NCBI GenBank assembly: GCA_022575985.1
Contig: JAKSXM010000137.1
Span: 17,874,001 to 17,938,000 of the forward strand
Source of the DNA: Anagrus nilaparvatae
Taxonomy: Eukaryota; Arthropoda; Insecta; Hymenoptera; Mymaridae
Direction of reading: 5' to 3'
DNA length: 64,000 nt
This document shows positions 6,001-41,620 of this stretch, piece after piece (within the stretch, counting starts at the first letter, position 1; every line of letters starts with the position of its first letter). The notes under the pieces are model-generated. The model had not been told where the DNA came from, did not search any database, and was given only the letters and a program-made list of their open reading frames with translations. The position numbers were made by a program, and so were the translations under genes.

Positions 6001-6189
6001 AAACTTGGTTTATAAGAATTTTAACCATTTTAATGGTTTCATGAAAGTGGATCCACCTTTTCTAAATATACAATAATTTTAATACTTATTTAATTTACTT
6101 ATATCTTGTTTTTTAATTACGCTTGCCTGGTGGGCCATATTTGTTTTAGTTTTCCTCTACGTAGAATATTCTCTTATTATTAGTAAACT

Positions 6190-9100: not shown

Positions 9101-9200
9101 TTAGTTTTCCTCTACGTAGAATATTCTCTTATTATTAGTAAACTTGGTTTATAAAAATTTTAACCAATTCAAATGGTTTCATGCAAGTAGATCCAACGTT
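6190..9200. repeat. 7-monomer higher-order repeat block (1,293 bp)
   Basis: Landmarks recur at exactly 1,293 bp. The variant TAGAATCTTC is at 6531 and 7824, and the A monomer that starts near 7113 recurs near 8406. Monomer order inside one unit reads A-B-A-B-A'-C-B, where A' has TGGACTATATTTGTTTGGG. Adjacent units are almost identical whereas neighbouring monomers differ a lot, which is the signature of higher-order amplification. Edges are approximate. Confidence 0.85.
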
Positions 9201-13600: not shown

Positions 13601-13954
13601 CAAATGGTTTCATGAAAGTGGATCCACCTTTTCTAAATATACAATAATTTTAATACTTATTTAATTTATTTATATCTTGTTTTTTAATTACACTGGCCTG
13701 GTGGGCCGTATTTGTTTTAGTTTTCCTCTACGTAGAATATTCTCTTATTATTAGTAAACTTGGTTTATAAAATTTTTAACCAATTCAAATGGTTTCAAGC
13801 AAGTAGATCCAAAGATTCTAAAAATTCAATATTTTTGATACCTATTTATATTTTTATATCTGGTTTTTTTATTTCTCAGGCCTTTTGGAATGTATTTGTT
13901 AAGGTTTTTCTCTACTTTACATATTTTTTCATTATAAGTAAACTTGTTTTATAA
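10620..13954. repeat. second 7-monomer higher-order repeat block (1,292 bp)
   Basis: The same A monomer starts at 11176, 12468 and 13760, spaced 1,292 bp each time. ATGCAAGTAGATCC landmarks at 10659 and 11951 repeat the spacing. The unit differs in composition from the 6.2-9.2 kb block, for example in its ATTAAATTATTTATATC variant, so this looks like a separate amplification. The third copy diverges after about 13.0 kb. Edges are approximate. Confidence 0.8.
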
Positions 13955-16900: not shown

Positions 16901-19900
16901 TGGTTTATAAAAATTTTAACCAATTCAAATGGTTTCAAGCAAGTAGATCCAAAGATTCTAAAAATACAATATTTTTGATACCTATTTAAATTTTTATATC
17001 TTGTTTTTTTATTTCTCAGGCCTTTTGGACTGTATTTGTTTAGGTTTTTCTCTATTTTACATATTTTTTCATTATAAGTAAACTTGTTTTATAAAAATTT
17101 TAACCTATTCAAATGGTTTCATGAAAGTGGATCCACCTTTTCTAAATATACAATAATTTTAATACTTTTTTAATTTATTTATATCTTGTTTTTTAATTAC
17201 GCTGGCCTCAAGGGCCATATTTGTTTAAGTTTTTCTCTACGTAGAATATTCTCTCATTATTTGTAAACTGGGTTTATAAAAATTTTAACCAATTCAAATG
17301 GTTTCATGCAAGTAGATCCAACTCTTATAAAAATACAATTATTTAGATACCTAATTAAATTTTTTATATCTTGTTTTTTTATTTCTCAGGTCTTTTGGAC
17401 TGTATTTGCTTAGGTTTTTCTCTATTTTACATATTTTTTCATTATAAGTAAACTTGTTTTATAAAAATTTTAACCTATTGAAATGGTTTCATGCAAGTGG
17501 ATCCAACGTTTATAAAAATACAATAATTTTGATACCTATTCAAATTTTTTCTATTATGTTTTTTTATTCCTCAGGCCTTTTGGACTGTATTTGTTAAGGT
17601 TTTTCTCTATTTTACATATTTTTTCATTATAAGTAAACTTGTTTTATAAAAATTTTAACCTATTCAAATGGTTTCATGAAAGTGGATCCACCTTTTCTAA
17701 ATATACAATAATTTTAATACTTTTTTAATTTATTTATATCTTGTTTTTTAATTACGCTGGCCTCAAGGGCCATATTTGTTTAAGTTTTTCTCTACGTAGA
17801 ATATTCTCTCATTATTAGTAAACTGAGTTTATAAAAATTTTAACCAATTCAAATCGTTTCATGCAAGTAGATCCAACGTTTATAAAAATACAATAATTTT
17901 GATACCTAATTAAATTTTTTATATCTTGTTTTTTTATTTCTCAGGCCTTTTGGACTGTATTTGTTAAGGTTTTTCTCTATTTTACATATTTTTTCATTAT
18001 AAGTAAACTTGTTTTATAAAAATTTTAACCTATTCAAATGGTTTCATGAAAGTGGATCCACTTTTTCTAAATATACAATAATTTTAATACTTTTTTAATT
18101 TATTTATACCTTGTTTTTTAATTACGCTGGCCTGAAGGGCCGTATTTGTTTAAGTTTTTCTCTACGTAGAATATTCTCTCATTATTAGTAAAATTAGTTT
18201 ATAAAAATTTTAACCAATTCAAATGAATTCATAAAAGTGTATCCAAAGATTCTAAAAATACAATATTTTTGATACCTATTTAAATTATTATATCTTGTTT
18301 TTTTATTGCTCAGGCCTTTTGGACTGTATTTGTTAAGGTTTTTCTCTATTTTACATATTTTTTCATTATAAGTAAACTTGTTTTATAAAAATTTTAACCT
18401 ATTCAAATGGTTTCATGAAATTGGATCCACCTTTTCTATATATACAATAATTTTAATACTTATTTAATTTATTTATATCTTGTTTTTTAATTACGCTGGC
18501 CTGAAGGGCCGTATTTGTTTAAGTTTTTCTCTACGTAGAATATTCTCTCATTATTAGTAAACTGAGTTTATAAAAATTTTAACCAATTCAAATCGTTTCA
18601 TGCAAGTAGATCCAACGTTTATAAAAATACAATAATTTTGATACCTAATTAAATTTTTTATATCTTGTTTTTTTATTTCTCAGGCCTTTTGGATTGTATT
18701 TGTTAAGGTTTTTCTCTATTTTACATATTTTTTCATTATAAGTAAACTTGTTTTATAAAAATTTTAACCTATTCAAATGGTTTCATGAAAGTGGATCCAC
18801 TTTTTCTAAATATACAATAATTTTAATACTTTTTTAATTTATTTATACCTTGTTTTTTAATTACGCTGGCCTGAAGGGCCGTATTTGTTTAAGTTTTTCT
18901 CTACGTAGAATATTCTCTCATTATTAGTAAAATTAGTTTATAAAAATTTTAACCAATTCAAATGAATTCATAAAAGTGGATCCAAAGATTCTAAAAATAC
19001 AATATTTTTGATACCTATTTAAATTATTATATCTTGTTTTTTTATTGCTCAGGCCTTTTGGACTGTATTTGTTAAGGTTTTTCTCTATTTTACATATTTT
19101 TTCATTATAAGTAAACTTGTTTTATAAAAATTTTAACCTATTCAAATGGTTTCATGAAATTGGATCCACCTTTTCTATATATGGGCATATCTCACCAAGT
19201 GGTTATATTGCATATGTGAGGGTTTTAATGAAAATCCAGCTTTCTGTTTCAAAAAAAAATTATTGAAATTTATTTATATATATTTCTTCTCAAGCTTCAA
19301 GAAATTTTTTTGCCTTATTTCGTTAATTATTATGAAATAACAACCTTGGAATGATTCGAAACCCTAATATTGTGTTGGTAACCTTGTTAAGTTTTTTAAA
19401 TTCTTAACATTACAATGGGAATGCCGTAAAACCATTTGCCTTTTTATAAATAGATTTTGATAAATTAATAATATATTTAATTTCTTCACATAATTAAAAC
19501 AGTGTGCTCCCTTTCTAAAAAAAATTCTGCCAGCCGAAACATTGGTAACCACGTTTTCAAATAAATACGATCAAAGAAAGTTTTTTAAGCCACAAATGAA
19601 TGCCGTGAACAATTTTTATTTCTAACTATTGTGAAAATTTTCTACAATGTTTCACAATTTGAAAGTGATTTGAGAAAAACTGGTGCCTCCAATAATTTAG
19701 TAGATATCGACACCAAAAGAATTTGTTGTCGATGCGTAATTTTGATACTAAAATCACATTTTTTAATGGCACTCGTTCAATTTTTAAAAAATCATCGCAA
19801 AATCTTTTGTGATTTATGTAAAATGTTATAAGATTTCAGTTAAAAAAAACGGCATTGCTTGATTCAATGCGTTGTATGTATAAACCTCAGTTTTATATAA

Positions 19901-21398: not shown

Positions 21399-22913
21399 AT
21401 ATACAATAATTTTAATACTTATTTAATTTATTTATATCTTGTTTTTTAATTACGCTGGCCTGAAGGGCCGTATTTGTTTAAGTTTTTCTCTACGTAGAAT
21501 ATTCTCTCATTATTAGTAAACTGAGTTTATAAAAATTTTAACCAATTCAAATCGTTTCATGCAAGTAGATCCAACGTTTATAAAAATACAATAATTTTGA
21601 TACCTAATTAAATTTTTTATATCTTGTTTTTTTATTTCTCAGGCCTTTTGGACTGTATTTGTTTAGGTTTTTCTCTATTTTACATATTTTTTCATTATAA
21701 GTAAACTTGTTTTATAAAAATTTTAACCTATTGAAATGGTTTCATGCAAGTGGATCCAACGTTTATAAAAATACAATAATTTTGATACCTATTCAAATTT
21801 TTTATATTATGTTTTTTTATTTCTCAGGCCTTTTGGACTGTATTTGTTTAGGTTTTTCTCTATTTTACATATTTTTTCATTATAAGTAAACTTGTTTTAT
21901 AAAAATTTTAACCTATTCAAATGGTTTCATGAAAGTGGATCCACCTTTTCTAAATATACAATAATTTTAATACTTATTTAATTTATTTATATCTTGTTTT
22001 TTAATTACACTGGCCTGGTGGGCCGTATTTGTTTTAGTTTTCCTCTACGTAGAATATTCTCTTATTATTAGTAAATTTGGTTTATAAAAATTTTAACCAA
22101 TTCAAATGGTTTCAAGCAAGTAGATCCAAAGATTCTAAAAATTCAATATTTTTGATACCTATTTATATTTTTATATCTTGTTTTTTTATTTCTCAGGCCT
22201 TTTGGAATGTATTTGTTAAGGTTTTTCTCTATTTTACATATTTTTTCATTATAAGTAAACTTGTTTTATAAAAATTTTAACCAATTCAAATGGTTTCATG
22301 CAAGTAGATCCAAAGATTCTAAAAATACAATATTTTTGATACCTATTTAAATTTTTATATCTTGTTTTTTTATTTCTCAGGCCTTTTGGACTGTATTTGT
22401 TAAGGTTTTTCTCTATTTTACATATTTTTTCATTATTAGTAAACTTGTTTTATAAAAATTTTAACCTATTCAAATGGTTTCATGAAAGTGGATCCACCTT
22501 TTCTAAATATACAATAATTTTAATACTTATTTAATTTATTTATAACTTGTTTTTTAATTACGCTGGCCTGGTGGACCGTATTTGTTTTAGTTTTCCTCTA
22601 CGTAGAGTATTCTCTTATTATTAGTAAACTTGGTTTATAAAAATTTTAACCAATTCAAATGGTTTCATGCAAGTAGATCCAAAGATTCTAAAAATACAAT
22701 GTTTTTGATACCTATTTAAATTTTTATATTTTGTTTTTTTATTTCTAAGGCCTTGTGGACTTTATTTGTTTAGGTTTTCCTCTATTTTAAATATTTTTTT
22801 ATTATAAGTAAACATGGTTTATAAAAATTTTAACCAATTCAAATGGTTTCATGAAAGTGGATCCTCCATTTCTAAATAAACAATAATTTTAATAATTATT
22901 TTATATACATTAT
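21399..22913. repeat. satellite array, second part, with decaying end
   Basis: About eight monomers of the same satellite resume directly after the ATAT duplication. The final two monomers (about 22,640-22,910) carry many private substitutions, such as CCTTGTGGACTTTATTTG and GGATCCTCCATTTC. That is expected at an array edge, where unequal exchange no longer homogenises the sequence. Confidence 0.93.
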
Positions 22914-23007: not shown

Positions 23008-24020
23008 CTAGCTGCCTCCGGCTCGCTTCGCTCGCCCCGGCAGCCACCATGGGGGCTGCGCCCCCCTGGACCCCTGCGGCTTTATTTTTCAAAAAATATG
23101 TTGTTTTAGGTTACTCTATATTTTGTAAAATAATCTTTTTTTACCCAAAGTATTATCTAAAATTTACTAAATCATAAAAATGACGGGCATATGAACCCAG
23201 ACAGATAATTAGTAATCAGCAATACAAAGCTTAGCTACCCTTCCATAGGATCCACAAGTGTATATATAATAACTTATAAATATATATAAATATATGAATT
23301 TGAAATCCAAATTTTATGCTAAAAAATATATGTAACTCTGGAAATATCAAACCGATTTGCTTGAAAATTTAGGTGGACACGTAAATAACAATTCTAAATC
23401 ATATAAAAACTTTTCTGATTACAAAAAAATTTCAATTTTTTAAGTTAATTACGATTTTTTGAAAATTTACGAAAACATCAAAAATGATCATTGAAAAAAC
23501 GTTTTTTTGGCGACAAAAATTTTCTTTCGCATCAATCTAAATCCTATAAAAACTATGACACTCCTGAAATATTTTCTCGTTTTTTGCTGCAAACCGCGTC
23601 TTTCTAGCTAACTTCGTCTAGGCGTGATCATCAAACTTAAAAAATTCTCTAACGCTATTAGTAGGATTAGTCGAAAACTTTTTAAATTTTTGAAAAATTA
23701 TTGTAAATTTTTACAGATCCAACCGATTCACTCCAAAATTTAGGTGCAATCGTAAAAAATATTCCCAAATGGAATGAAAGACTTTGCCACAGTAAAATTT
23801 TTCCTTAGTTCTCAGATTTTTAGGTTTTTTTTTTAAATTGCATAAAAATTTTTTTCTTGGAAATTCAGTTTTTTCAAAATACAAAATTTTTGTTCCAATT
23901 AATTGAAATGAAACCAAGCCTATGTTTTGACCGGTAATTTTTGCCGTCTTTTGCCGTAAACCCAATATTTCTAGCTTTTATTGTGGTCTAGTTTATCGCG
24001 TTCGGGCATACATACATAAT
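23008..24020 (-). mobile_element. Helitron-like non-autonomous element, reversed copy
   Basis: Read on the minus strand, it ends in GGCTCGC-rich sequence, GGAGGCAGCTAG, and then T. That matches the CTRR-then-T 3' end of Helitrons (family rule). About 30-50 bp before the end lies the strong hairpin GGGGGCGCAGCCCCC, shared with the copies at 33.3 and 33.7 kb. The 5' part carries CCGAACGCGATAAACTAG, also shared with the 31.8-kb element. The interior is AT-rich and related to that element, with no helicase (RepHel) coding. The extreme 5' end is worn: the TG run there has become ATGTATGTATG. Confidence 0.72.
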
Positions 24021-24225
24021 GGTGATTTTGCCCAGAAAACATAAAAAATGATCATTTTTTTGAACAAACGTTTTTTTGGCGACAAAAATTTTCTATCGTA
24101 TCAATTGAAATCTTGTATAGCCTATGTCACTTCTGCAATTTTTCCGCGTTTTTTGCCGCAAACCGCGTCTCTCTAGCTATTATCGTCTAGTCAATCCTAT
24201 CAAACTAAAAAAATTCTCTATCGGC
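24021..24225 (-). mobile_element. partial second Helitron-like unit
   Basis: This block repeats the interior of the adjoining element. GTTTTTTTGGCGACAAAAAT with TTGCCGCAAACCGCGTCT lies here and also at about 23,498-23,606. So the element shows tandem internal duplication, as does the copy at 31.8 kb. It is cut off by the ATAGAT microsatellite and the foldback insertion. Confidence 0.55.
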
Positions 24226-24275
24226 ATATATATAGATATAGATATAGATATAGATATAGATATAGATATAGATAT
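24226..24275. repeat. (ATAGAT)n microsatellite
   Basis: Seven or more ATAGAT units, preceded by TATATA. The foldback element at 24,276 has inserted at its end. Confidence 0.9.
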
Positions 24276-25794
24276 GGGCATATCCATTACTGTTCATACA
24301 AAAGTGTGCGCACCCATGACTCCGATCGGGCTCAAATTTTCAGGGGTGGTTTGAAGTAATAAAAAACTCAGACAGCCAAAATTTCAGCCATTTTGCAGGA
24401 CGGGTTGCCGAGATACAAGCTCTAAAAGGTCCAAAAATAGCTGTTTTTAGCCAATTTTCAAAAATTTACTGGGCTTCAAGGATTAGTCCAAAAAACTTCC
24501 GGCTGGTCTCTTTTTTTTCCTTGAACATTCAACTTTTACCAAAAAAATTTTCAAAAAGTTTTATGGAGTTGATTTTTACTGGCATTGATTAACGTAAGAT
24601 CTATTTTATCAATAAATGCTGATTTTTGAACTTGAATTGTGACTCAGCAGCATTAGCTAAAGACTTTTTGGTCTCATTAAAAGCGTCTATCAAAGGCCTT
24701 TCAAATGAGACCTTAGACGTTAAAAAAACTTATCAGGGACCGGAGATATAAGCAATTGAAAGTTTGCTGTTTCCGAAAATATCGATTTTTTAACAACTTT
24801 AATCGTCTGCAAAATTTTTCTCTGAGCACTTTAAGGGCTAAAAATTTCAGGAAAGCTTCTTTTGATATTAAAAAAAATTCCCTAAAAATTTGGGCGATGG
24901 TATTGGCTTCTGTTCGTAGATATAAGACTCTGAAAATGTGTAATAATTGGACCAATATTGGCCAATAAATGGTTAAAGGGTCAACCAAAAAATTTTTCTT
25001 CTTCAATATTCGAATAGCCAGGGAAAAATGAGCTGATTTTAAAAAAAAAATTTTTATTTTTGACCGAAAAATAAGCAAGTTATCATCATTTTAAGATTTT
25101 TTAAAAAATTTTCCAAAAATCCCATTTTTAGGGTCATTATACAGTATTCTAACTCGAAATAATGATAACTCGCTTATTTTTCGGTCTAAAATAAAAATTT
25201 TTTTTTTTAAATTGTCGAATTTTTTCCTGCTTATTCGAATATTTACAAAAAAGAAACTTCTTATATGCAAAAATTATTTGTTTTTGCCAAATTACTTTAG
25301 AACTTACTTTATTTTGTCAATGTATTCGGGTAGTTTTTGGCCCAAAAAAATAATAAAATAATTTGAAAGGTCTTTGATAGACGCTTTTAATGAAACCAAC
25401 CGGAAGTCTTTAGCTAATGATGCTGAGTCACAATTCAAGTTCAAAAATCAGCATTTTTCGATAAAATAAATCTTACGTTAATCAATGCCAGTAAAAATCA
25501 ACTCCATGAAACTTTTTGAAAATTTTTTTGGTAAAAGTTGAATGTTCAAGGAAAAAAATGAGACCAGCTGGATGTTTTTTGGACTAATCCTTGAAGCCCA
25601 GTAAATTTTTGAAAATTGGCTAAAAACAGCTATTTTTGGATCTTTTAGAGCTTGTATCTCGGCAACCCGTCCTGCAAAATGGCTGAAATTTTGGCTGGCT
25701 GAGTTTTTTATTACTTCAAACTACCCCTGAAAATTTGAGCCCGATCGGAGTCATGGGTGCGCACACTTTTGTATGAAAAGTAATGGATATGCCC
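24276..25794. mobile_element. 1,519-bp foldback DNA transposon, ATAT target
   Basis: The left end GGGCATATCCATTACTGTTC and its near-exact inverse on the right are flanked by ATAT on both sides. The inverted arms are about 430 bp each (24,276 to about 24,710 and about 25,370 to 25,794), with GCGCACCCATGACTCCGATC in each. The centre holds a second, smaller inverted repeat (about 25,040-25,205) around GACCGAAAAATAAGC. Overlapping open frames of 121 and 70 residues on opposite strands have no recognisable domain. A shorter relative is at 40,512-41,616. Confidence 0.88.
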
Positions 25795-25798
25795 ATAT

Positions 25799-26261
25799 AT
25801 ATATATATATATATATTTCATTTATATTTTTCAGCACGTGAACTGTCATCAAGGACTATTTAGGGGTTTTATTATATTGCTTTTGATTATATCATTCCTA
25901 CAGGCTGAATTTTCCTTAATTCTAATGTTCTTCAAAAATTGAGCAAGTTAGTGTAAAAAATCTACTTAGATATCTATACCTATATTTTTTCCCAAGTATA
26001 GTTGACATGACCTAAAATTCTTAAGGCTTTATATTCTTTAGCAAACATCCCTTTTAAGACCCCAGCCTCATTCATAAATAACTAATACAACCAGGCTAAT
26101 ATACATTCCTTACCTTTCTTTAACTAAAATTAAAATAAAGTTTTCACATTATGCATAGAAACAGAATAATGAGTGAGTACTTTTTTGAATTAATAATTTG
26201 AAAGAAATTTTTTGTTTTTTTTAATTTTTAAAAAATAAAAAATTGATTTTTATTTAATCTT
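25799..26261. other. AT-rich non-coding stretch
   Basis: A short (TA)n run at its left side, then unique AT-rich sequence. I see no coding region, TIR or known repeat. Confidence 0.6.
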
Positions 26262-26337
26262 GGTCATCTATGATTAAGGCTAAGCAGTGATCATACTGAT
26301 GAAGCCTCACACTGCTTAGCCAAGTGGCGAAATGACC
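26262..26337 (+). ncRNA. candidate hammerhead ribozyme (helix III open)
   Basis: All core parts are present in the right order. Helix III is GGTCAT (26262-26267) paired with ATGACC (26332-26337). The cleavage triplet reads ATC, so the cut would fall between 26268 and 26269. Helix I is TATGAT (26269-26274) paired with ATCATA (26290-26295), extendable by T.G and A-T. The core box CTGATGA (26296-26302) abuts helix I directly, and GAA (26329-26331) abuts helix III. Helix II is weak: GCC (26304-26306) with GGC (26326-26328), after one extra A. Loops I and II carry a 12-base perfect complement, GGCTAAGCAGTG (26278-26289) and CACTGCTTAGCC (26310-26321). This could be a kissing contact or a rival hairpin that masks the core. 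A relative at 37.4 kb keeps this pairing with compensatory changes. Activity is untested. Confidence 0.7.
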
Positions 26338-26373
26338 TTGGGATTTTCCGAAAAATTTTTCGGAATTTCCCAA
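26338..26373 (+). repeat. 18-bp inverted repeat directly after the ribozyme candidate
   Basis: TTGGGATTTTCCGAAAAA is followed without spacer by TTTTTCGGAATTTCCCAA; 16 of 18 positions pair. It begins at the base after helix III of the hammerhead candidate. It may be part of the same structured RNA or element end. Confidence 0.75.
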
Positions 26374-27286
26374 CATAAAAAATTTTAAACATCTTATTGA
26401 TTGTTCTTAATTTAATACTACACTGTCTGATATATTTAGAGTGTAAATATTACACCAAATATCAGCACGAGTATTTAAGAATTTTATCATTGTCTGGAAA
26501 GGTCGCATTATTTAATAATCATAAATGTTATAATTTAAAATTATAAATTAAATTTGATAAAAAAAAAAAGAAATTAAATTTTATAATTAAATTATTAAAT
26601 AAACCAATCAAAATTAATTGAAAAAAAAAGAATCAAATTTTAACGATATAATTATATTTGAAAAAAACTATGTCATGTTATATATATTCGATACCTATTA
26701 CATAAGAAACCAAAAAAAATAAAATAAAAAAACAAAAATACTTAAGAATTAAAAAAAAAATTTAAATTAGATTCGGGTTCCAAACAAAAGGAAATAAATC
26801 ACGAAAGATATCTATAGAATGAAATCTAATAATAGTTATTTTAGAAAATTAGTACCTATATCATCTTCACCTTTAAAAAATATATATATATATATAAAAT
26901 GAGATGAATTTTTTTATTTATATTTTTTATATAATACAGATTTTTCCCATACACATAAATTTTGGTATGGAAATATATTAGACCTTTAGCAATTTTTAGG
27001 TTATATTGTTGTTATAAATAGAACTTTTATAAGAAATAACTGAAATTTTAGAAATTATGGACGAATAGATTCAATGCAACATGAGGAATAATAAACGATT
27101 CCGAAATTTTACAGCTGAAAATTTGAAATTTGGGGTAATATGTGAAATCAAAGTTAACAATATGCAGATTTAAAATACGCAAATAATGCTTATAGCTGGT
27201 TAATTTCAAATGTATCTAAGTAACCCTAATTAAACTTTGAGTTGAGTATACTAATACTGACCAAGAAATTAAACTTCAAAATTTAC
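26374..27286. other. AT-rich non-coding stretch
   Basis: A-rich runs (26,560-26,760), a (TA)n run near 26,880 and otherwise unique sequence. No gene seen. Confidence 0.6.
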
Positions 27287-27292
27287 ATTATA

Positions 27293-28332
27293 GGGCGATT
27301 ATTTCTCAACCCGGCCACCCCCCTCTGTCCAAAAATGGTGGCAACTTAAAAAGATTTTGGTTTTCTTAAATTGACTGGAAAAGGGTCTAGTTTTTTATTC
27401 TCATTGGCCTTTTCAACTCTGTAAATCTACTGTGCCCATTTTAGGCACTGAGCGGCGGCAGGTCGACATTTTAAAAACAGAAAAATTGAAATAAAAGTAG
27501 ATTAACGGTAAGTTTTTTGAAATTTTTTTCTCTTAAAAGTTGTTATTTATTAAAACAAAGAAAATGAGACCACTTGCGTGGTAATTGGTTGATTTTTTAA
27601 GAAGTTTTGTGGGTGCTATGTAGTTTTTAAAAATGGGTTAAAAACGGCTACTTTGACTGACGATATCTCTGAACCTACATATCCAAAATAAAAAAGCTTT
27701 AGTGCAAAATGGTAGTCTTTTGATACATAATAAGTGTGCCAAATATTAGGGGATTTGATAGAGTAGTTTCGTATTTAGCAATTTTCGGCTATTAATTCTC
27801 TTAATAAAATGGGTCAAAATTTGTCTCAGAATTACCCTTAAAATTGCTAAATCCGAAACTACCCAATCAAATCCCTTGATATTTGGCACACTTATTATGT
27901 ATCAAAAGACTACCATTTTGCACTAAAACTTTTTTATTTTGGATATGTAGGTTCAGAGATATCGTCAGTCAAAGTAGCCGTTTTTAACCCATTTTTAAAA
28001 ACTACATAGCACCCACAAAACTTCTTAAAAAATCAACCAATTACCACGCAAGTGGTCTCATTTTCTTTGTTTTAATAAATAACAACTTTTAAGAGAAAAA
28101 AATTTCAAAAAACTTACCGTTAATCTACTTTTATTTCAATTTTTCTGTTTTTAAAATGTCGACCTGCCGCCGCTCAGTGCCTAAAATGGGCACAGTAGAT
28201 TTACAGAGTTGAAAAGGCCAATGAGAATAAAAAACTAGACCCTTTTCCAGTCAATTTAAGAAAACCAAAATCTTTTTAAGTTGCCACCATTTTTGGACAG
28301 AGGGGGGTGGCCGGGTTGAGAAATAATCGCCC
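27293..28332. mobile_element. 1,040-bp near-perfect palindromic (foldback) element
   Basis: The ends read GGGCGATTATTTCTCAACCC and its inverse, flanked by ATTATA on both sides, a 6-bp target duplication. The two arms are about 490 bp each and almost identical over their length, for example in GGCAGGTCGACATTTTAAAA and its inverse. The unpaired centre is only about 55 bp (27,785-27,838). No coding region is recognisable. The GGGC start resembles the ATAT-flanked elements, but the 6-bp duplication and different TIR argue for a separate family. A transcript across it would form a long RNA hairpin. Confidence 0.9.
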
Positions 28333-28338
28333 ATTATA

Positions 28339-31300
28339 ATAGAAAAATGTCCAGCAATTTATCTGAAAATTTAAGCAAAATCAAAATTTAAAAAAAGACG
28401 TTGAAAACTTTAGTAACTTAAGGTAGATTTATTTTAAGAATCAATTATAAATAAAACCATTTTAGGGTTGATTTTAGGAGTTGTTTAACAAATCAATATG
28501 TTGCTGGCCAGAGTCTCGACAAAATTTAAAATAAAACGAGGTCTAACATATAAATTATAATAAAAATATTTAAAAATGTTGATATACAAGGTTTTAAAAA
28601 ATTTTCAAAACGTAAAATTAAAATATATTATTAAAAAAATACATAAAAAATCATAAAATATTAAATACGAAAAAGAAATAAGTACTTTATCATATAACAA
28701 GCAGAGTATATAAGTCATTCAAAAAAAAAAAAAGTTCTTCTAAGTCAAAAATTGCAGGCTGTCACTTAAAATGTATAGTATTCAAAAATCAACGAAATTC
28801 TCATTCCGCGAAAGGCCCGCACACTAGGTTAAAACGATAAAAATATATATATATATTTTTTGCAAATCCTCTTTTTGCCGTCGTCATGTAAAAATTGGCG
28901 CGCCAAAGGCGGAAGACCGTAAGCTTTCATAGCATAATATGACCTTTCTCAAATTTTAGATCCCCTGCGGGTTGCTTTGTAAAAATTTTAATGAAAATAA
29001 TGGATGTAACACATATGCCTATATATATGTATATTAATATACGAACTTGCATATTTGTTTCACATGTTAACGAAAATGATATATATATAGAAATTTAAAA
29101 TCACGTAACTTACTACATATTGCAAAAAAATAAATAAAGAAGTTGAAAACGAGAGCGGAAAAGAATGAAAAAATATATAAAGCTTTAAATGATGTATTTT
29201 TTGCATGTCTATGAGCATTTCGTGTTAAAATTTTAGAAATACTTAAAAAAAAGTGACCTATATATTTATATTCTTCAGTAAAGGGTTATAATTAGCATGG
29301 AATTTTTGCTTTTTTAAATATAATCAACAAATATCTATAATTAAAAAAATGAAAAAATTTTAGGGTATTTTACCGTTATAATAATATTTTTACTGGAATA
29401 CAGATTTTCAATAACAAAAATTTATAAAGAAGCTTATTAGTCAGAAACTAATATTTTTTTTCATGTCGTTTTATTGCAGTTTATAAATTAATCTTTTCTA
29501 ACTAAATTAATTTAAAACATAGCTGAAAAAAAAGAAATGAAAAAAATTCTTTAGACTAAATTGATTGGAAGCAAGTTTTATAATTGACCTTGAATTCAAG
29601 GGCATAAAAATAAGATTAATTATCTATATCTTACTATGCTTTTTTACTTGTGTATACTTTCATTAATTATGTTGTTATTATTATTTTTATTATTATCATT
29701 TTTATTGTTTTATTTAGTTTTAACGTTCTATCAATTTAATTATTGAGATAATTGTTTTTATTGTAATATATTGCAATGTCTAGAGCTGATGGCTTAAGAT
29801 TTGTTCTGGATAATTTTTATAATTAAAAATTGGGTGTGTAATAATTGGACATTGGGGTAATGAAAACTCTTACGTGCCTTTTATTGTCAGTAGCGTATTG
29901 ACAGGAATGGCAAAGATGGCACTTGCCGAAAAAAAATCCACTAGCCGCAAGCAGAAATATTCCGCTTCGATCTGGCGAAATTTTTTTCTTGCAAAAACAA
30001 TTGCAAATCACTTAAAACTTAAAATAATTTTTAAAAGGCTAATCATAATGCTGCACACATATCTTAAATGGGTGTCAAATTTTTTTAACCCCTCCCCCTT
30101 CAGGACGGATCGGTTTTTATTTTACTTTTATTTCTTACATACCAATTTAGGAATATATTAAGGATAGATAAGTATTCTAGAATATCCTAAATTTTCATTT
30201 CCAGATTACTACTCTAGTCAATTTCGGATCACCAAGGCTTTTAATATAAGACTCAGTGGGCATCCTTAGATTAGTAATTGCATTGTCAATTTGCAGTTTT
30301 ATTTGGTAACTCACAAGTTCACCTTATGACTCGCGTAAGCTGTTCTACACACAATAAATAATAACTTAGATATTCATCAAAAAAACCAATCAGAATTACA
30401 AACAGGTTTTAAAAATTATCCATGAAATAAATGCTCTCAAAAACTGCCATAAACTAATCAAAATTTACCAAAATAAAAATCACATTTTCTAAAAGCAGCT
30501 TTCACTAACAACAATTTTTACCATAAAACAAATAATCACAATCATTAAAAATTAAAAATTAAAATACAAAAGCAATAATAAAAATTTTAATTATTACGTT
30601 GTTTTTCATAGTTTATTAAACTATTAAAAACCATAAATATTCATCCTATATAAATATATAATTATTTATGTACATGAGTATAATTTAAAAAATTTTTATT
30701 TATAATCATGATAATATATTCTACAATATACTTCCTCTTCATAAAATTATTTAAAAAAAAAAAATTCATATACAACAATTTAAGTATATTAAATAATTAT
30801 ACTTCATATATATATACACATAAAATATTCAACAAACGTTTAATTTTAACAGATTGATCATAATATTTTGTTTCTTAAAAAAATTTTATTATAATAATTA
30901 TGATATATAATTATGTTATATAGATAAAAACTATTGTTATATTCATATAAGAATATTCTAATTGATCATTAAAATGTCAATGACTGCTATTGAACACTGT
31001 TAAAGAATGAAAATTGAGGTATTATAACATATAATATGCAATATTAAGCATTATAAAAAAATTGAGAAGATGTTTACAGAAAATTTTATTATTATTATTA
31101 TTATAATTTACGAAGTAATAATATTGTTGATGAGGCTAATCAAGTTTTCATATATATATACATGCATGAGATAAAAAGACTATCTCGTCTTCAAAATATA
31201 CTTCTTCATTGTTTCTTAGTGATTTTATATGTGTATAGTATTATAAAAACAAGCCCCCAAGACTGTAAAAAAACTTTATGAGTCTTCGTGATCTTTGCAT

Positions 31301-31819
31301 ACTAGACTGTCCGCGATGTTTTTCAAAATTATATTTTTAATTAAGTTTTTATATACTCTCTAAAGTTACTGTCTTTGTATACATGAATCTAAAGATTATG
31401 GAATTTTTTATCAAATTGTCTTTGCAGAATCTTTGCAGAATAATTCAAAGGTTCCTTGGGTAGTGAAGATTAATAAAAGACCTTATATTATAAAAAAGTT
31501 GAATAAAAACTGCAAAAATGACCTTAAAATAATGACCTATCTTTGGCTACAGTACCATGTTAAGAAAAAAAGTACCTAAAATAAACAATACTCGCAGATA
31601 TTATTTTATTCAGAGAATATTTTGAGAAAACATTTATTCAAAATATGCAACTGCCTAATGTTTACTCATACATGCATTTACATTTATAAATATTCTCTTA
31701 ATTTGATACGCTTTAACATGGTCGAGACGTAATAACAACATTTTTAACAAAAAATAATGTAATGCATATATTTATATTGTACGAACATATGTAATTGTAA
31801 TATACATGCAATTATTTAT
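28339..31819. other. AT-rich intergenic or intronic stretch
   Basis: No supported gene. A GC-richer patch at about 28,860-28,980 contains GGCGCGCCAAAGGCGG and may be an old transposon piece. Another at 29,830-30,120 has short frames on both strands, the longest 95 residues, without a recognised domain. The rest is A/T-rich with short TA and TTA runs (28,845; 30,800; 31,090). Confidence 0.55.
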
Positions 31820-32948
31820 CCTATATATATATAAATCTTTAATTATGTGTGTGTGTGTGTGTGTCCGAACGCGATAAACTAGAAAACGATAAAAGCTACA
31901 GACATAGGGTTTACGGCAAAAGACGTCAAAAATTACGGGTCAAAACATAGGCTAGGTTTTATTTCGATTGATAACGAGGAAAAATTTTTATGTTGAAAAA
32001 ATTGAATTTCCAAGAAAAAAATTTTTATCAAATTTTCAAAAAAAATCAAAAAAACTGAAAACCGAGGAAAAATTTTTTTATCAAAAAGAATTTCATTCGA
32101 TTCAGGCATATTTTTAACGTATCCACCTAAATTTTCAAGGTAATCAGTTCGATCTGTCAAAAGTTACAATCATTTTTCAAAAATTATAAAAGTTTAGGAC
32201 TAATATTATATATATTTCTAATTTTTATAAAAAACAGAAAAGTAAGGAAAAATTTCACTGTGGAAAAGAGTTTCATTCAATTCGGGTATATTTTTTACGA
32301 ATTCGCCTAAATTTTCAAGTTAATCGGCTCGATCTGTCAAGAGTTACAATCATTTTTCGAAAATTATAAAAGTTTAGGACTAATCCTATATATATATAAA
32401 TCTTTAATTATGTGTGTGTGTGTGTGTGTCCGAACGCGATAAACTAGAAAACGATAAAAGCTACAGACATAGGGTTTACGGCAAAAGACGTCAAAAATTA
32501 CGGGTCAAAACATAGGCTAGGTTTTATTTCGATTGATAACGAGGAAAAATTTTTATGTTGAAAAAATTGAATTTCCAAGAAAAAAATTTTTATCAAATTT
32601 TCAAAAAAAATCAAAAAAACTGAAAACCGAGGAAAAATTTTTTTATCAAAAAGAATTTCATTCGATTCAGGCATATTTTTAACGTATCCACCTAAATTTT
32701 CAAGGTAATCAGTTCGATCTGTCAAAAGTTACAATCATTTTTCAAAAATTATAAAAGTTTAGGACTAATATTATATATATTTCTAATTTTTATAAAAAAC
32801 AGAAAAGTAAGGAAAAATTTCACTGTGGAAAAGAGTTTCATTCAATTCGGGTATATTTTTTACGAATTCGCCTAAATTTTCAAGTTAATCGGCTCGATCT
32901 GTCAAGAGTTACAATCATTTTTCGAAAATTATAAAAGTTTAGGACTAA
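31820..32948 (+). repeat. tandem duplication of 565-bp block A
   Basis: The sequence from CCTATATATATATAAATC at 31820 restarts at 32385. Every landmark I compared is at +565, including the (GT)9 run, ACGTCAAAAATTACGGG and ATTTCACTGTGG. I saw no difference between copies, even in GT-run length, so the event is recent or an assembly duplication. Confidence 0.92.
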
Positions 32949-33692
32949 TATTATATATATTTGTAATCTTACCGGTTACTAATTTAGTAGCTCAATAGAG
33001 TAACTAAAAGAAACTTGTACAGCTATTATCAGGGAGAATCCTAGAATTGGTAGTTGAGGGAAGCAACTGCCACTTGCGGATCAAAGGGAAGGGTAATCAA
33101 GCTTTGAATCGCTGATCACTAATTATCCGCCTGAGTTCCAACGTCCGTAATTTTTATGATTTACTAAATTATAGATAATAATTCGGGTTAAAAAGGTTGT
33201 TATAAAAAATATTGAGTAATGTAAAACAACATATCTGGAAAAATCATGTTGCAGGGGTCCAGGGGGGCGCAGCCCCCTTGGCGGTTGCCGAGGTGAGCGA
33301 AGCGAGCCGGAGGCAGCTAGTATTATATATATTTGTAATCTTACCGGTTACTAATTTAGTAGCTCAATAGAGTAACTAAAAGAAACTTGTACAGCTATTA
33401 TCAGGGAGAATCCTAGAATTGGTAGTTGAGGGAAGCAACTGCCACTTGCGGATCAAAGGGAAGGGTAATCAAGCTTTGAATCGCTGATCACTAATTATCC
33501 GCCTGAGTTCCAACGTCCGTAATTTTTATGATTTACTAAATTATAGATAATAATTCGGGTTAAAAAGGTTGTTATAAAAAATATTGAGTAATGTAAAACA
33601 ACATATCTGGAAAAATCATGTTGCAGGGGTCCAGGGGGGCGCAGCCCCCTTGGCGGTTGCCGAGGTGAGCGAAGCGAGCCGGAGGCAGCTAG
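31836..33692 (+). mobile_element. Helitron-like non-autonomous element with A-A-B-B interior
   Basis: The 5' end is A|TCTTTAATTATGTG followed by (GT)n and CCGAACGCGATAAACTAG. The 3' end is CCGGAGGCAGCTAG|T, with the hairpin GGGGGCGCAGCCCCC upstream. TC at the start, CTAG at the end and an A/T host dinucleotide fit Helitron rules. No RepHel coding is present. The interior is two adjacent tandem duplications: block A (565 bp) twice, then block B (372 bp) twice. The inner A junction restarts the TC end and the inner B copy has its own CTAG end, so sub-elements A-B-type ends are repeated. The reversed relative is at 23.0-24.2 kb. Confidence 0.75.
32949..33692 (+). repeat. tandem duplication of 372-bp block B
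   Basis: Block B runs from TATTATATATATTTGTAATC to GGAGGCAGCTAG and fills 32949-33320 and 33321-33692. The copies look identical. Each ends in the Helitron-type CTAG followed by T. Confidence 0.92.
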
Positions 33693-34281
33693 TTTAAGTA
33701 TATTTTCATATCATACACGTTTGTTTGTATTATAAAAACTTAATAATCAAATTAAAGTATTTCTTGTGTATCGTATATTCAGAAAATGCTTAATATAAAG
33801 AACTAATTGGTCTAAAATTATATAAAAAATTTCTAAACTATATTGAAATAAAATTTTATTTCTACTATCAATAAATAAAATAACAAATAAAGCGTTAAAT
33901 TTCAGTCAAGTTTATAATTGAAATTGAAAAAAAATAATCAATACTTTGAATAGAAAAATTTGAAATTGTGTATTTTCTTTAGCAAATGTAGATTAAAAAA
34001 GATTTAAATTCGATTATAACAAAAAGGTAACCTCAAAATAATAAAGAGACAGTTATTTTATAAAACGCCTTGACTCTTCATAAAGTTAGTTAATTTAAAA
34101 TTTGTATACATACATTACTATGATATAGTATATGTTTATGTAAATAATCACCTTAAATATTCTCGCAAATGAAATGTATTCGTAAGAGTATAAAAGTAAT
34201 CTATAGAAATATTTTCCACTTTGATTTTTATAAAATATTCATAATTTTGTATAAGTATTGATATATATATTCTTTAGAGTT
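33693..34281. other. AT-rich non-coding stretch
   Basis: Unique AT-rich sequence with no gene or repeat that I can support. Confidence 0.6.
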
Positions 34282-34789
34282 TCATAAACATGGTTTTTTT
34301 TTAACGTATCCCTGGATACTAGGGTCCAATTCTCCTCTGCTTGCATTTTGATTATCCTGCTTACCTATGATAATATTCATGGCAATTTCAGAGAAAACTT
34401 CCCACATTATTTGTTTACTCTACTTCTGCGAGTTTTTTGCTGATTAACCAGTTATTGTATAATGTTTTAAAGCCTAACACACCTTCTAGTAATCTACGAC
34501 TTAAATCGGCCTTTGTGACTGCTAATACTGCTGAATTCAGTACACGTTTTTTGCAATATATTTTTGTGTTTTCCAATTCTGACATGAAATCAAATAATTA
34601 TGAAGGCATACGAAGAAGTAATTAAAATTGAAAATATAATTGTACCTCTTCAACATTATACTGAATTTCTGGTGCTTCTTCCTGGTGTTGATCTTCAGAA
34701 TTCATCTAAGCATCATCGCCACTCTTTTCACCAGCAATAGATTGATTAGCTTCTACCTTAGTTTGGTTAACTGCCATTTTCTTGGTATT
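34282..34789 (-). pseudogene. broken coding fragment, possibly BEN-domain-like
   Basis: I do not recognise this with certainty. The minus strand shows three pieces of protein-like composition in GC-richer DNA. Piece 1 (34777 to 34646) starts ATG in a good context (AGAAAATGG) and encodes MAVNQTKVEANQSIAG then an acidic tail rich in E, D and Q. It has one in-frame TAG at 34706-34708 and ends at a GAAGAG|GTACAA donor-like site; TTTCTACAG lies just before the exon. Piece 2 (34585-34415, 56 residues) contains IYCKKRVLNSAV and LSRRLLEGVLGFKTLYNN. This resembles BEN domains (Y-C-x-K start, then RxLLxxVF, then TL/AL). Piece 3 (34407-34282), in another frame, has MWEVFSEIAMN and GELDPSIQGYVKKK, like a BEN C-terminal L-D-P...Y-V-x-K-K, with an ATAG|GTAAGC donor-like site. 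Stops and frame changes suggest a pseudogene, unless small introns separate the pieces. BEN domains occur in chromatin-bound transcription factors. Confidence 0.4.
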
Positions 34790-36359
34790 CTGTAGAAAGT
34801 AAGTTTTGTTGTTAGTAAATTGAGCTCACATTAAAAAAATAAAATATTTTTTATTTTTGTTACTTTATTTAAATGTTTTTTTTAGAGAGGATACATTATT
34901 ATCTGTTTTATTTTATTAACAATTTAATTCCCTAAATTAATAATAGAAATTTTATGTTATTTAAGGACAATCAAATAATTAAAATATTCTAACATTCTTA
35001 GTATTTCATTTTAAAAATGCAATACAAAAAGTGTAAATAATATTTATCTTTTTGATAATTCATAATATTTTCTTCTCTGTGTGCAAATATCAACTTGAAG
35101 AATAATGATGTAGACATGAGAGAAGATCACATAGCAGAAAAATACCAAAACAATTTGATATGAAAAAAATTTTTTATTTTTATTGTTGTTTCATGATATC
35201 CATACGCATATTATATTAACCTGTACACATAAGACGTCTGTAATTTACCATTAAAAAATTCAATGTTTATTTTTACATACACAACGTAATGATTACAAGC
35301 CTATAATAAGTCACAATAAAAATAAGCAAATTACTATTAAAGCTTGAAAATTCTTTAATTTTTTAGTTTGTTAAAAAAAAAATTATAATTTACGACTGTT
35401 AATCATCTCTTCGATCATCATCACCACACACAAACAAATATATATTTACGTGAATTGCAATGAAATATTATATATTTATAAGAATCTTTATGAATAGAAA
35501 GAGATGAAAGATGATCCTTATAAAAGTTATGTAGAAAGATATCAAAGATACAAATGTATTTGTATATGTCCAACAAAAGAAGAAAACTAAAACCAAAAAC
35601 AAAAAACAAAAAATTATGTTTTGTAAAGCTGAGAAATTTTTAGCACTCGGTGGTGTGCCAAGTGTCTCATCAGTCAAACGTCAAAAGGGGCGTTAGTTAT
35701 TTATTTTTTTTTTTTATATTTTTAACAACAAATCTTAAGTCACCTTGGAATGATGCACTTCCTTTTCATCCTTCATTTCTTTCTTTATACGTATTTTTTT
35801 TTCTTTAAATCTTCATTTGGTGCGCAGAAGAAATTTTGTTAAAAAAAATTATGTCTTTTTAAATAACTAATATAAAATGATGATTATTATTAAAGAAACT
35901 CATTTTCTGCTTGAAATTGTTATATGAAGATAAATATTTAGAAGAAGTAGATTTGATTACTTAACATCACCAAAAATAAAAGATGAACCAAAAGGTAAAA
36001 ATTGTAAGTGCGGGAGGAAAGAAAGAAAGAAAAAAAAAATACAGATAATGAGTGGAGGATACTTGGCGCCTCTCTGATCATTCTTCAGTCTAGCACAACG
36101 ACTTTTTGTATTTTATTTATTATTTTTTTTTTTGCATTATGTACAAGAAAGACGTTAAAATTATTTTAATGGTTCCTTATATGAATATAATGAAGTTAAA
36201 GAGAGATAGAAATATACTTATGTAGGTACTTATAGGTATATTTATTCTTACGTTATTGATAAAGAATACATTGCATTAATAAATTCAAAAAATATTCTAT
36301 AAAAAAAAAGTATAATTAAATTTTTTTTTATCTACTTAAAAAGTATAATCAAGTTTTAA
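34790..36359. other. AT-rich stretch with GC-richer patches
   Basis: No gene supported. At 35,390-35,690 and 35,980-36,110 the sequence is less repetitive, e.g. CTTGGCGCCTCTCTGATCAT. At 35,641-35,667 there is a hairpin between CACTCGG and CCAAGTG. Poly-T runs lie at 35,705 and 36,122. Confidence 0.5.
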
Positions 36360-36364
36360 AATAA

Positions 36365-36440
36365 CCAAGTTTTTTCAACACAAAAAATTTTGGTCGTTTA
36401 CAATCGAAATGAAACCTAGCCTAAGTATGTTTCCAGCAAT
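36365..36440 (-). mobile_element. Helitron-like interior fragment
   Basis: ATCGAAATGAAACCTAGCCT, preceded by an AGTTTTTTCAACACAAAAAA-like stretch, aligns with about 23,868-23,933 in the reversed Helitron-like copy and with the reverse of about 31,940-32,000. Neither end of the element is present. Confidence 0.5.
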
Positions 36441-37401
36441 ATATTTTTACAGAATTTTTCTACGCTACGTATAGTTCTAATCAAGACAGAAACCAATAGG
36501 TAAATATTATTTATAATTTATAAATTATCATAACAATATAATTGTTATTAGCCAACTACTTGACACATATAAAGTGCTTCGTGACAGTATATTCGATTGG
36601 CTCTTTTTATTCAAATATTTAAAAATTTTGTGAAACAGCTATTTGCTGAAATTTTGTTATTAGTAGTTCTAGTATCTACAAATAAACCATCAAAAGGTGA
36701 AATATAAACAATATATTTAATTCAATAATAATGTACTCACAAGAGAAGATATTTTCTATGTACCAATATATCTTATTTCACATAGTAACGGAGAATTAGA
36801 GAACAATGAACTCCTAAATGTTAATACTAGCAAAAGAAAAAAATATAAAATAAAAATATTGATGACACTTTAATATAATAATCAGAAAGTAATAATTTGT
36901 TATGTGTCACTGATGTACTTATATATCCTCTTAGAGTCATTTCATTTGTGAGAAAAAATATTTTAACTTTTTTAGTGAATATAAAATGAAATACAACGTT
37001 AATACAGCGTTTTTTAGATATAATTTTTTAGTTGTTATTTTAAATGAATTTTTTTTAAATTACTCCACAGGTTGTCCATAAAACGAACTTCGGAAATGAA
37101 AAGAGCAGCCCTAATTACCTACTAGGTAACATTTTTAGCCCCAAATTTAAATTTTTTCATTACGAAAAATTTTGATGGCTTGTATGTGTCGATTAGGCTT
37201 TAATGGGTTAAGTAACGGCTAAAAAACTAAATTACGTGATAATATTTTCAAAAACTGGCTTACAAACGGAAAAAATTAAATAAAAGTGTGTTTAACTCAT
37301 TTAATTCAACTAAGATGTTGTTTTAAAAATGGAAATTTTTATAAAATTTATACTCTTCAAGGTTTTAAAACTGTATTCTAATAAACGGGTGTGACTGAAA
37401 A
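36441..37401. other. AT-rich non-coding stretch
   Basis: Unique AT-rich sequence; I see no gene. A slightly GC-richer part near 37,070-37,260 leads into the ribozyme relative. Confidence 0.55.
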
Positions 37402-37472
37402 ATTCTACGAAAAGGCTAAATAGTGAACGTACTGATGAGCCTTACACTATTTATCCAGAGGAGAAATAACTA
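37402..37472 (+). ncRNA. diverged hammerhead-like relative, probably inactive
   Basis: It aligns with the candidate at 26,262. The parts are: a TTC triplet ending at 37405; helix I TACG (37406-37409) with CGTA (37428-37431); core CTGATGA (37432-37438); GAAA (37463-37466). The long loop pairing is kept: GGCTAAATAGTG (37414-37425) with CACTATTTATCC (37445-37456), 11 of 12 pairs. Relative to the first copy, a GC dinucleotide became AT on both sides, and helix I changed T-A to C-G, so these are compensatory changes. Helix III is not convincing (AAAATTC against GAAATAAC) and helix II is only about two pairs. Confidence 0.45.
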
Positions 37473-39399
37473 AAAATTGTTAACTCAAGTTATCGAATAG
37501 ATTTATTCAAATTTCAAAGGTTTCTTGTAAATAACCAAAGAGCATTTTTACTACCATATTAACCATAATACAAAAATGGTATGAAACAGTATTTCAAATT
37601 CACTGTTTTTGTTTTTAGGATTCAAATCTTCTATCACAATTAGAGATTATCTCTCATTCTGAATGAACATTATTTGAGGAGTTGAGTTATTTTAAGATTC
37701 TAAATCAAAATTATTATTTTAGGGTGTAATATAATTAAAATCCAATCTCCCCCTCAGACTTTATTTTTATATTATCAAAGTATACTTTTCTGTTTCAACA
37801 AATAAACTCCATAATCTTCTAAAAAAATAATAAAATTAAAAAATGACAGTAATAATAATAATAATTATAATAAAAATAACTTAACATTAAAGAAATTAAT
37901 ATAAATTACACTTATTTTTCAAAATAAATTTATTTTTATACCACGCAGAATATGTTTTTTTTTTATTTTATCATTTTTTTATATTCTTTCTTGCATATGC
38001 AATATTTAAGATTTAATCACTAAATGTAGATACGCCTATCCATAACTGACTAAAAAGTACGATTAAAAATTTTTTATTATTATTATTTTTTATGTTAACT
38101 TTGTTGCTTTAACTTTTTCTCATGAATTTTTTTTTTTTTTTATTCTGTTGCAATTTTTAAACAAATTCCAAGAATAAAATTTTGTTATTTTATTAGTCCT
38201 TTTAAATTTGTTGCTGTTTATTTTATTTTTTTAATATATTATTAATACATGATCATTTTTACAACTTTCTGTTCTATCTAACCTGCTTGTTATGTTTTTT
38301 TTTTTGGAATATTTAGGCACAATTTTTATCTTTAAAGATCTTAATTGGATGTCGTTAAAAATGACTTGATAAACATGTAAGTTTATAACACAAATTTATA
38401 AAATATACACGTTGTATATATTCATGTAAAAAATAAATAAATATTAAATGGTAATTTTTACAATAAAAAAAAAATAACAAAAAACTATTGTACTTCGTTA
38501 ATCATTTTTTTTATGTTTTGGAAATCAGAATGTTAAAAAAAATATGTTTTTGGTGAGTATAAATAAAATTTATATATTTTAATTTTCAAGAATCAAAGAT
38601 AACTTGAAAAAATTGATTAAAGTAAAAAAATACAATGATTGGAAAGACCCTTGTAAAAAATAAAAAAACACTTGTCAATTTATAAAAACCTTTTTAGTAT
38701 TTGATTTTACAAGAATCCTTTGAATCCTTACACGAACCCTAAAAATGATTGGACAACATTTTTAAACATTAAATTGGTAGTTTATAATTAATTAATTTTC
38801 ATATTAATTTAACTGAATTTGCTACCAGGTTTTAGTTCATTTATATCCCTTGAGTATTGGTTCCCATTATGATAGCTAATGGAAGGTTAAAATGATCTTA
38901 CTTAGGATAACTGAGTAGTCAATTAGAAATTTATTAGGTACTTAAAAGTAATTTACATTCAATTAGTGGATACATAAAAAAATTTATTTGAAAGCTTTGC
39001 TACTGGATAGCTATTGTACTTTGAAGATCAAAATTTTTTGAACAATTAAATTCAAATATTTCAAAGGTTCAAAAAAGTAGTCTTGAAATGATCATTTATG
39101 AAAGTAATAAGTAAACTATATTGTATTTAAAAATATCTTAGATAGTTACCATTTGATGTGCAATCTATGTTATAAATGAATTCATCAAAACCTCTTCCAA
39201 TATAACAAACAAGTATTAAAATATAAATTAAATTCAAAATGAAAGTCAAACGATAACCTTTTCTTTGCATTAATAATTGTAAATAAAAGTTAGTATGATA
39301 ACTTGAGTAAATTAAATCGCCGTTAAAGCTTCTTGTATATGTATGTATAATATAAGTTATAAACTTTGAAAAAGGTATCGGGAGACGAGTCAAAGACGG
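37473..39399. other. AT-rich non-coding stretch
   Basis: Long A and T runs (37,960; 38,130; 38,300; 38,466) and unique AT-rich sequence. The 94-residue minus-strand frame at 39,127-39,411 has no recognisable domain and is not called as a gene. Confidence 0.55.
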
Positions 39400-41616: not shown

Positions 41617-41620
41617 ATAT

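Follow-up and report, generated by a model that had tools for sequence, protein, structure and literature searches.

Type III hammerhead ribozymes are known in animals from termite, toad and fly sequences, where the accessible part of the source (PMC7936874) describes them in HDV-like circular RNAs and as genomic motifs, with Watson-Crick pairs joining loops 1 and 2, a 5-bp helix I that contains an internal loop, an extra hairpin of ~20 nt and a short GCCR/YGGC contact, the termite genomic copies being isolated. The non-LTR retrozymes of metazoans carry type I hammerheads, one per unit, in short AT-rich non-coding tandem units of ~150–450 bp, and the LTR retrozymes of plants are non-autonomous retroelements with a type III hammerhead, LTRs, a primer-binding site, 4-bp duplications and a GC content above 55%, as far as the excerpts of both sources go (PMC7229834, PMC7761336). 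Penelope-like elements, according to the available portion of PMC11167929, code for a reverse transcriptase (RT) and a GIY-YIG endonuclease, occur as tandem or partial-tandem copies, have a 3' end set where reverse transcription starts internally, and carry a minimal hammerhead nearby, which is of type I (type from an excerpt of PMC7761336). In a further group of hammerheads, paired loops 1 and 2 form a pseudoknot of 4–6 bp that holds helices I and II together (PMC3088659, in the sections available). Unpublished insect elements with type III hammerheads are hinted at in the part of a review open to us (PMC7761336), and no described type III retrozyme of an animal was found in a literature search from which subscription journals were mostly absent.

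Here we analysed a 64-kb stretch of Anagrus nilaparvatae DNA (the window), in which positions 26262–26337 probably represent a type III hammerhead within a small non-autonomous retroelement of the retrozyme kind, whose RNA would cut itself and be copied into arrays. The element occurs as two families, A and B, which resemble the termite, toad and fly hammerheads in being animal type III ribozymes with Watson-Crick pairing between loops 1 and 2, but form high-copy elements and arrays; by inspection, they lack the helix I internal loop, the extra hairpin and the GCCR/YGGC contact, and have a 12-bp complementarity instead. They share with metazoan non-LTR retrozymes the short AT-rich non-coding tandem units with one hammerhead each, but their ribozymes are type III and spaced 469 bp (at one locus) or ~558 bp, and because metazoan retrozymes as so far defined in those sources are type I, they are not members of that group. 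A type III hammerhead in a non-autonomous retroelement is also what plant retrozymes have, although the local GC around the window copy is 0.29. Tandem and partial-tandem copies with an internally set 3' end recall Penelope-like elements, whereas units of families A and B are too short for the Penelope-like proteins and showed no coding in the scans made. Compared with the known loop-loop pseudoknots, the paired loops are similarly placed to hold helices I and II together, but over 12 bp and with compensatory changes.

Results

Every part of the hammerhead that a previous sequence-only reading had placed at 26262–26337 was found at its bases (Table 1), and judged by its sequence the stretch is a complete type III layout with ATC as the cleavage triplet. 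That reading did not include the perfect 12-bp inverted repeat formed by GGCTAAGCAGTG in loop 1 and CACTGCTTAGCC in loop 2. A motif descriptor requiring 5 bp in each of helices I and III, 3 bp in helix II, CTGATGA, GAA and UH matched no site but 26262–26337 on either strand of the window. It had no match in 40 Mb of first-order Markov sequence searched on one strand, where a looser 4/4/3-bp descriptor gave one. These searches, the dispersed copies and the compensatory changes among them bear out the earlier judgement that the arrangement is unlikely by chance, and on the same grounds a chance motif is ruled out. The weak helix II that had been raised as a doubt is present, and results from a T in place of A at 26325, but as an objection to the motif it falls away, being local decay: the 3' strand of helix II reads GAGGC in 21 of the 29 distinct family A sequences. 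The window copy is worn, with a T-T mismatch in helix II, and may be slow or dead.

Table 1. Positions of the hammerhead parts and of the repeat copies that carry them in the window.
Feature	Positions	Strand	Basis or remark
Family A element copy carrying the hammerhead, 354 bp	26171..26524	+	common blastn extents of copies; unit 373 to 119 corresponds to 26171-26387
Helix III, 5' strand, GGTCAT	26262..26267	+	pairs with 26332-26337; position check and copy alignment
Base that we take to be C17 in the hammerhead numbering; predicted cleavage after it, between 26268 and 26269	26268..26268	+	place in the layout
Helix I, 5' strand, TATGAT	26269..26274	+	pairs with 26290-26295; first 4 pairs used in covariation count
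12-bp loop-loop helix, strand in loop 1, GGCTAAGCAGTG	26278..26289	+	position check and copy alignment
Helix I, 3' strand, ATCATA	26290..26295	+	4 pairs used in covariation count
Core CTGATGA	26296..26302	+	position check
Extra A between CTGATGA and helix II	26303	+	position check
Helix II, 5' strand, GCCTC (GCC, 26304-26306, in the sequence-only reading)	26304..26308	+	family A alignment
12-bp loop-loop helix, strand in loop 2, CACTGCTTAGCC	26310..26321	+	position check and copy alignment
Helix II, 3' strand, GTGGC (GGC, 26326-26328, in the sequence-only reading)	26324..26328	+	family A alignment
Core GAA before helix III	26329..26331	+	position check
Helix III, 3' strand, ATGACC	26332..26337	+	pairs with 26262-26267
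Family B fragment (unit 283-405), joined directly to 37404-37514	37282..37404	+	80.8% over 125 bp
Family B copy (unit 558 to 110), hammerhead core CTGATGA at 37432-37438	37404..37514	+	loop halves at 37414-37425 and 37445-37456

The absence of a satellite or retroelement around the motif, as stated in the sequence-only reading, did not hold, as the ribozyme lies inside a dispersed repeat, and a related family occurs as tandem arrays and as insertions whose 5' ends are scattered. When the genome to which the window belongs (488.7 Mb, 393 contigs) was searched with a 131-bp query, 40 of 119 candidates were scored, comprising the window copy and 39 others that are 91–95% identical, with homology usually spanning the 354 bp of Table 1 and extending past both sides in fuller copies. 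The exact 26-mer CTGTTTAGCCAAGAGGCGAAATGACC of the family A ribozyme occurs 32 times (reversed control, 0). Family A ribozymes have a loop 1 of 15 nt and carry a single additional A or T where CTGATGA meets helix II, and several copies are inverted pairs. At locus L034, two ribozymes are spaced by 469 bp and a distinct 3' tail comes after them, and the ribozyme pairs of L010–L020 (L017 and ten near-identical loci) sit in a larger amplified block of tandem repeats ~537 bp apart, with 98.8–99.8% identity between loci. A separate family A copy, L023, is flanked on both sides by GAATACGAGTT and begins on the left with ~30 T.

Another copy of the motif, also absent from the sequence-only reading, was first seen at 37412–37470 of the window, where it is 79% identical over 61 bases to 26262–26337, with differences that mostly preserve pairing. 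The flanks of the two window copies align as AT-rich sequence alone, their alignment scores being 31 on the upstream side and 48 on the downstream side, where the highest score in 50 shuffles was 44. This second copy is a composite of two pieces of the family B unit (Table 1) and has not kept the 5' strand of helix III. The genome search for family B returned 292 candidates, of which 40 were scored, and the exact 25-mer CTATTTAGCCAGAGGCGAAATATCC of its ribozyme occurs 159 times (reversed control, 0). Tandem short non-coding units with one hammerhead each are found in the family B arrays, including ten complete ribozyme sites spaced 556–559 bp apart in the L056 array and at least 18 sites ~557 bp apart on contig C161 (among 100 of the 159 places listed); in family A they amount to the single 469-bp pair. 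The L056 unit reads GGGTATC^TACG, CTGACGA, GCCTC/GAGGC and GAAATATCC, with loop halves GGCTAAATAGTG and CACTATTTAGCC, and is canonical, having AUC, a helix III of 6 bp (one G-U), a helix I of 4 bp, a helix II of 5 bp and GAAA. Loop 1 of family B measures 18 nt, and the nucleotides left unpaired beside the loop-loop helix number four plus two at helix I and one plus one at helix II. Between the two families the alignment covers the ribozyme (86% over 58 bp) together with ~60–80 nt upstream of it, beyond which the comparison gave weak short AT-rich matches alone. Strict motif patterns had no matches in viral contigs or in contigs of prokaryote genomes.

Open frames of at least 120 aa were absent at both ribozyme copies of the window, and Pfam gave no match in the two + frames scanned across 24001–38999. 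The window also contains a satellite array at 1–19177 and 21401–22907 (185-bp unit, 369-bp higher-order period), a near-perfect palindrome of ~1.05 kb at 27287–28340 (95.7% self-complementary), a 95% identical inverted repeat pair of ~0.93 kb at 24268–25200 and 40689–41625, each with a nearly identical 125-aa open frame, a 372-bp repeat in two copies (98–99% identical) beside a 180-bp repeat at 32945–33705, and at 62537–62621 an interstitial (AACCT)n-like repeat, which resembles the insect TTAGG telomere repeat and, like the size of the genome, agrees with the arthropod origin given in the sequence-only reading.

The sequence-only reading had named the lack of a covariance-model match above threshold, combined with a transcript that does not cleave itself, as a ground for giving up the hammerhead, and the first of these two was observed. 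No Rfam model matched at its gathering score in the 64-kb window or in seven further loci, and no hammerhead appeared up to E = 10 on 26150–26450; for a 201-base piece of the L056 unit, the best of 4227 families was Hammerhead_3 (type III), at 26.1 bits (E 0.00091), which is below the gathering score of 48.5 and does not reach the curated cut-off. The window copy and the family B unit both have the CUGANGA...GAA core and the UH triplet of a type III hammerhead, and three helices with helix III open are seen, with double changes in helices I and III and none in helix II (18 of 28 distinct copies). Apart from the Rfam cut-off, all the sequence criteria examined agree with a type III hammerhead. 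The earlier claim of a hammerhead is thus backed by the compensatory changes, by a ribozyme that diverges less than its flanks and by the sub-threshold type III match of an array unit, and goes unsupported at the Rfam gathering score.

Across 24 long family A copies, 37 of 1824 ribozyme letters (2.0%) deviate from the majority. The figures are 71 of 1320 (5.4%) for the remainder of the search query and 274 of 5127 (5.3%) for sequence beyond the query; the Fisher value for ribozyme versus rest of query (5e-7) is nominal, because the copies are related. Within the core (CTGATGA, GAAA, UC), 3 of 312 letters deviate, a difference from the rest of the ribozyme that is not significant (p 0.19). This count left out L010 and L012–L020 (ten of the eleven near-identical young loci, all bar one), L001, the duplicates L003, L005 and L008, and shorter matches. 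Covariation was assessed in an alignment (A2) of 18 of the 28 distinct ribozymes, without those of L005 (two), L010 (one), L019, L031, L033, L036, L042, L045 and L046; as several of these have indels or lack a helix III 5' strand of their own, the count leans towards structure. In A2, 94.7% of 486 cells in helices I, II and III and the 12-bp helix are paired, versus 32–40% when the columns are slid by 1–3. Five pairs carry double changes, two each in helix III and the loop-loop helix and one in helix I; helix II has none among the 18 copies. The number of double-change cells (18) exceeds that of shuffles (5.9; 0 of 500 reach 18). Two of the five covariation measures do not favour structure, namely the number of pairs with a double change (5 vs 3.4 in shuffles, reached by 44 of 500) and that of further pair types (8 vs 9.2, reached by 485 of 500).

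The 12-bp complementarity of loops 1 and 2, with its compensatory changes, is on this comparison new and unusually long. Folding programs, which cannot score the 12-bp helix and the hammerhead helices together, choose helix III plus a 12-bp hairpin (-19 to -26 kcal/mol) over helices I, II and III (-9 to -13 kcal/mol). Since helices I and II use other bases than the 12-bp stem, both could coexist as a double pseudoknot, and the family B linkers are, as a rough estimate of distances, long enough for such a clamp. The complementarity might instead be a switch, with the 12-bp hairpin as an inactive, competing fold that postpones cleavage until the RNA has done its work or been closed into circles, an alternative to be taken seriously but which we regard as unlikely. 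Its strength is that the hairpin is favoured by ~10–17 kcal/mol, provided the two folds exclude each other, and that the one-nucleotide helix II linkers of family B, together with the closing pair, would have to bridge the ~31 Å spanned by a 12-nt A-form strand. However, the two folds use different bases and need not compete, 12 residues make eleven steps or about one helical turn in ideal A-form geometry, so that the strand ends share one face, and pseudoknots between loops 1 and 2 are predicted for ~40% of hammerheads and raised activity where tested, according to the available sections of PMC3088659. We judge a clamp more likely than a switch.

Of the 22 family B insertions listed, 21 have a readable end (that of L045 lies beyond the fetched stretch), and 20 of these stop at unit 107–116, the main 3' end being just after CGAATAAAATTATTCAGA in the L056 unit. 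The remaining one, L057, stops at 144, and inverted partner pieces of L038 and L062, which are outside this list, end at 143–144, a possible second 3' end of the family. The 5' starts are scattered over the whole unit, and 5' parts are inverted in L038, L041, L057 and L062. In a simple search, convincing target-site duplications were rare among family B insertions, with the exception of L061, which has the flanking repeat GAAAACTTG. The pattern of ends is like that expected when reverse transcription begins internally and stops early, which is described for a Penelope-like element (PMC11167929), and an internal 3' end with scattered 5' ends and tandem copies, a trait of Penelope-like elements, is seen in family B. 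A decayed satellite or DNA repeat spread by recombination alone, with the ribozyme as a relic that has no role in copying, is improbable: arrays could grow by unequal exchange, and family A also lies inside a larger amplified block, yet the scattered 5' ends, the nearly single 3' end, the 5' inversions and the L061 duplication point to reverse transcription, and the core CTGAYGA is kept in 15 of the 19 short family B loci fetched, including some in which GAA is missing.

Among 45 distinct 5' breakpoint events of family B, 7 fall at -3..+5 of the predicted cleavage site, 10 at -40..-4 and 9 at +6..+41, a density ~threefold higher at the site (7 in 9 positions vs 19 in 73; nominal Poisson 0.01). 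The seven are L045, window/L036, L042, L046, L098, L090 and L102, of which L090 and L102 read as +4 and were placed in the interval once mismatches were allowed. The count left out L087 (ambiguous), L037, L040, L100, L101 and rows beyond -40, and took the two rows of L062 as one; five of the nine downstream breakpoints (L089, L095, L096, L106, L121) were deduced from having no match up to position 24–25, and start positions differ between gapped and ungapped mapping. Because three of these breakpoints (those of the window, L102 and L042) represent internal junctions or are doubtful, and the interval was picked after the data had been seen, the excess is a weak hint, and a hint alone, of cleaved templates. 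Separately, the family B copy at L101 (G000:C79:7325174-7325358) has 15 extra bases exactly at the predicted cleavage site.

Since units of 469–559 bp are too short for an RT with GIY-YIG, and no such coding was found in the element, we looked at Penelope-like sequences elsewhere in the genome, where at least 39 GIY-YIG domain matches were present (150 of 1090 candidates scored). Locus L124 has an open 702-aa frame with RT and GIY-YIG, for which moths, butterflies and a psyllid are named among 120 of 865 relatives listed. Locus L123 has an 885-aa frame with a GIY-YIG match and no Pfam match at 0.001, which looks Penelope-like. An autonomous partner with the same ribozyme was looked for among three GIY-YIG loci and not found. 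L123 and L124 share nothing with families A or B beyond AT-rich stretches. At L125 (G000:C79:14168500-14176000), a family A ribozyme lies 0.8 kb from a GIY-YIG match; here a 3.1-kb palindrome of Penelope-like sequence is inserted within a family A ribozyme, and another family A copy lies directly against a truncated Penelope-like fragment. This arrangement suggests nested insertion and does not prove a partnership. A Penelope-like driver for both families is plausible from these sequences. On the minus strand of L123, ~360 nt past the 885-aa frame, we also noted CTGAAGAGGCTCAT..ATGAGAGAAACG, possibly a minimal hammerhead of a Penelope-like element.

Discussion

We favour the reading in which the hammerhead at 26262–26337 belongs to a small retroelement that probably works like a retrozyme. 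The sequences themselves show the motif and its two families, their arrays, a 3' end that is nearly fixed, compensatory changes and a ribozyme that diverges less than its surroundings, and from these we infer cleavage, circle formation, the start of copying, the three-dimensional clamp and the use of a Penelope-like RT. In this model, families A (a 354-bp shared part, with the 469-bp ribozyme spacing at one locus) and B (~558-bp units) have the ribozyme and little else in common. Transcripts of the repeats would have an open helix III and short helices I and II, and a conserved helix, at most 12 bp long, would join loops 1 and 2, clamping helices I and II side by side. The RNA would then cut itself after AUC and release molecules one unit long that carry a 5'-OH at unit position 1. 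Reverse transcription, possibly by a Penelope-like enzyme, would start at an internal site ~108 nt past the cleavage site in family B. Such an internal start would leave nearly one 3' end and variable 5' ends, and multimeric or circular templates would yield head-to-tail arrays.

That the conserved unit is a long hairpin of helix III and the 12-bp stem, such as a fold-back DNA end or a protein-binding RNA hairpin with an incidental core, is very improbable. In its favour, folding gave this hairpin as the lowest-energy structure for each of four sequences (z -2.9 to -7.1), and compensatory changes occur in its stem. Against it, helix I, for which it has no use, carries a double change (UA replaced by CG in 5 of 18 rows), variation is lowest in the letters of CTGANGA and GAAA (not significantly so compared with the rest of the ribozyme), and the family B unit fits the type III model best of all the RNA families scanned.

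Beyond the retrozyme-like element itself, we suggest tentatively, and with more doubt than confidence, a class of animal retroelements that multiply through hammerhead-cut RNA circles and rolling copies made by a Penelope-type RT, and whose ribozymes have a new fold, a nested double pseudoknot with a full-turn 12-bp loop-loop helix that present models miss. The long loop-loop helix may explain the sub-threshold Rfam scores, and it offers a direct probe of how much tertiary clamping hammerheads tolerate, and the closeness of the 3' end to the ribozyme makes a link between cleavage and reverse transcription testable. In the parts of the sources available (PMC7936874, PMC7761336), the retrozymes of animals have type I hammerheads, and those of type III are found mostly in plants and their viroid-like RNAs, with motifs in termites and flies. 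An abundant type III family, in arrays and near-identical copies in an animal genome, would bridge the retrozymes of plants and animals, and would provide a source for infectious hammerhead RNAs.
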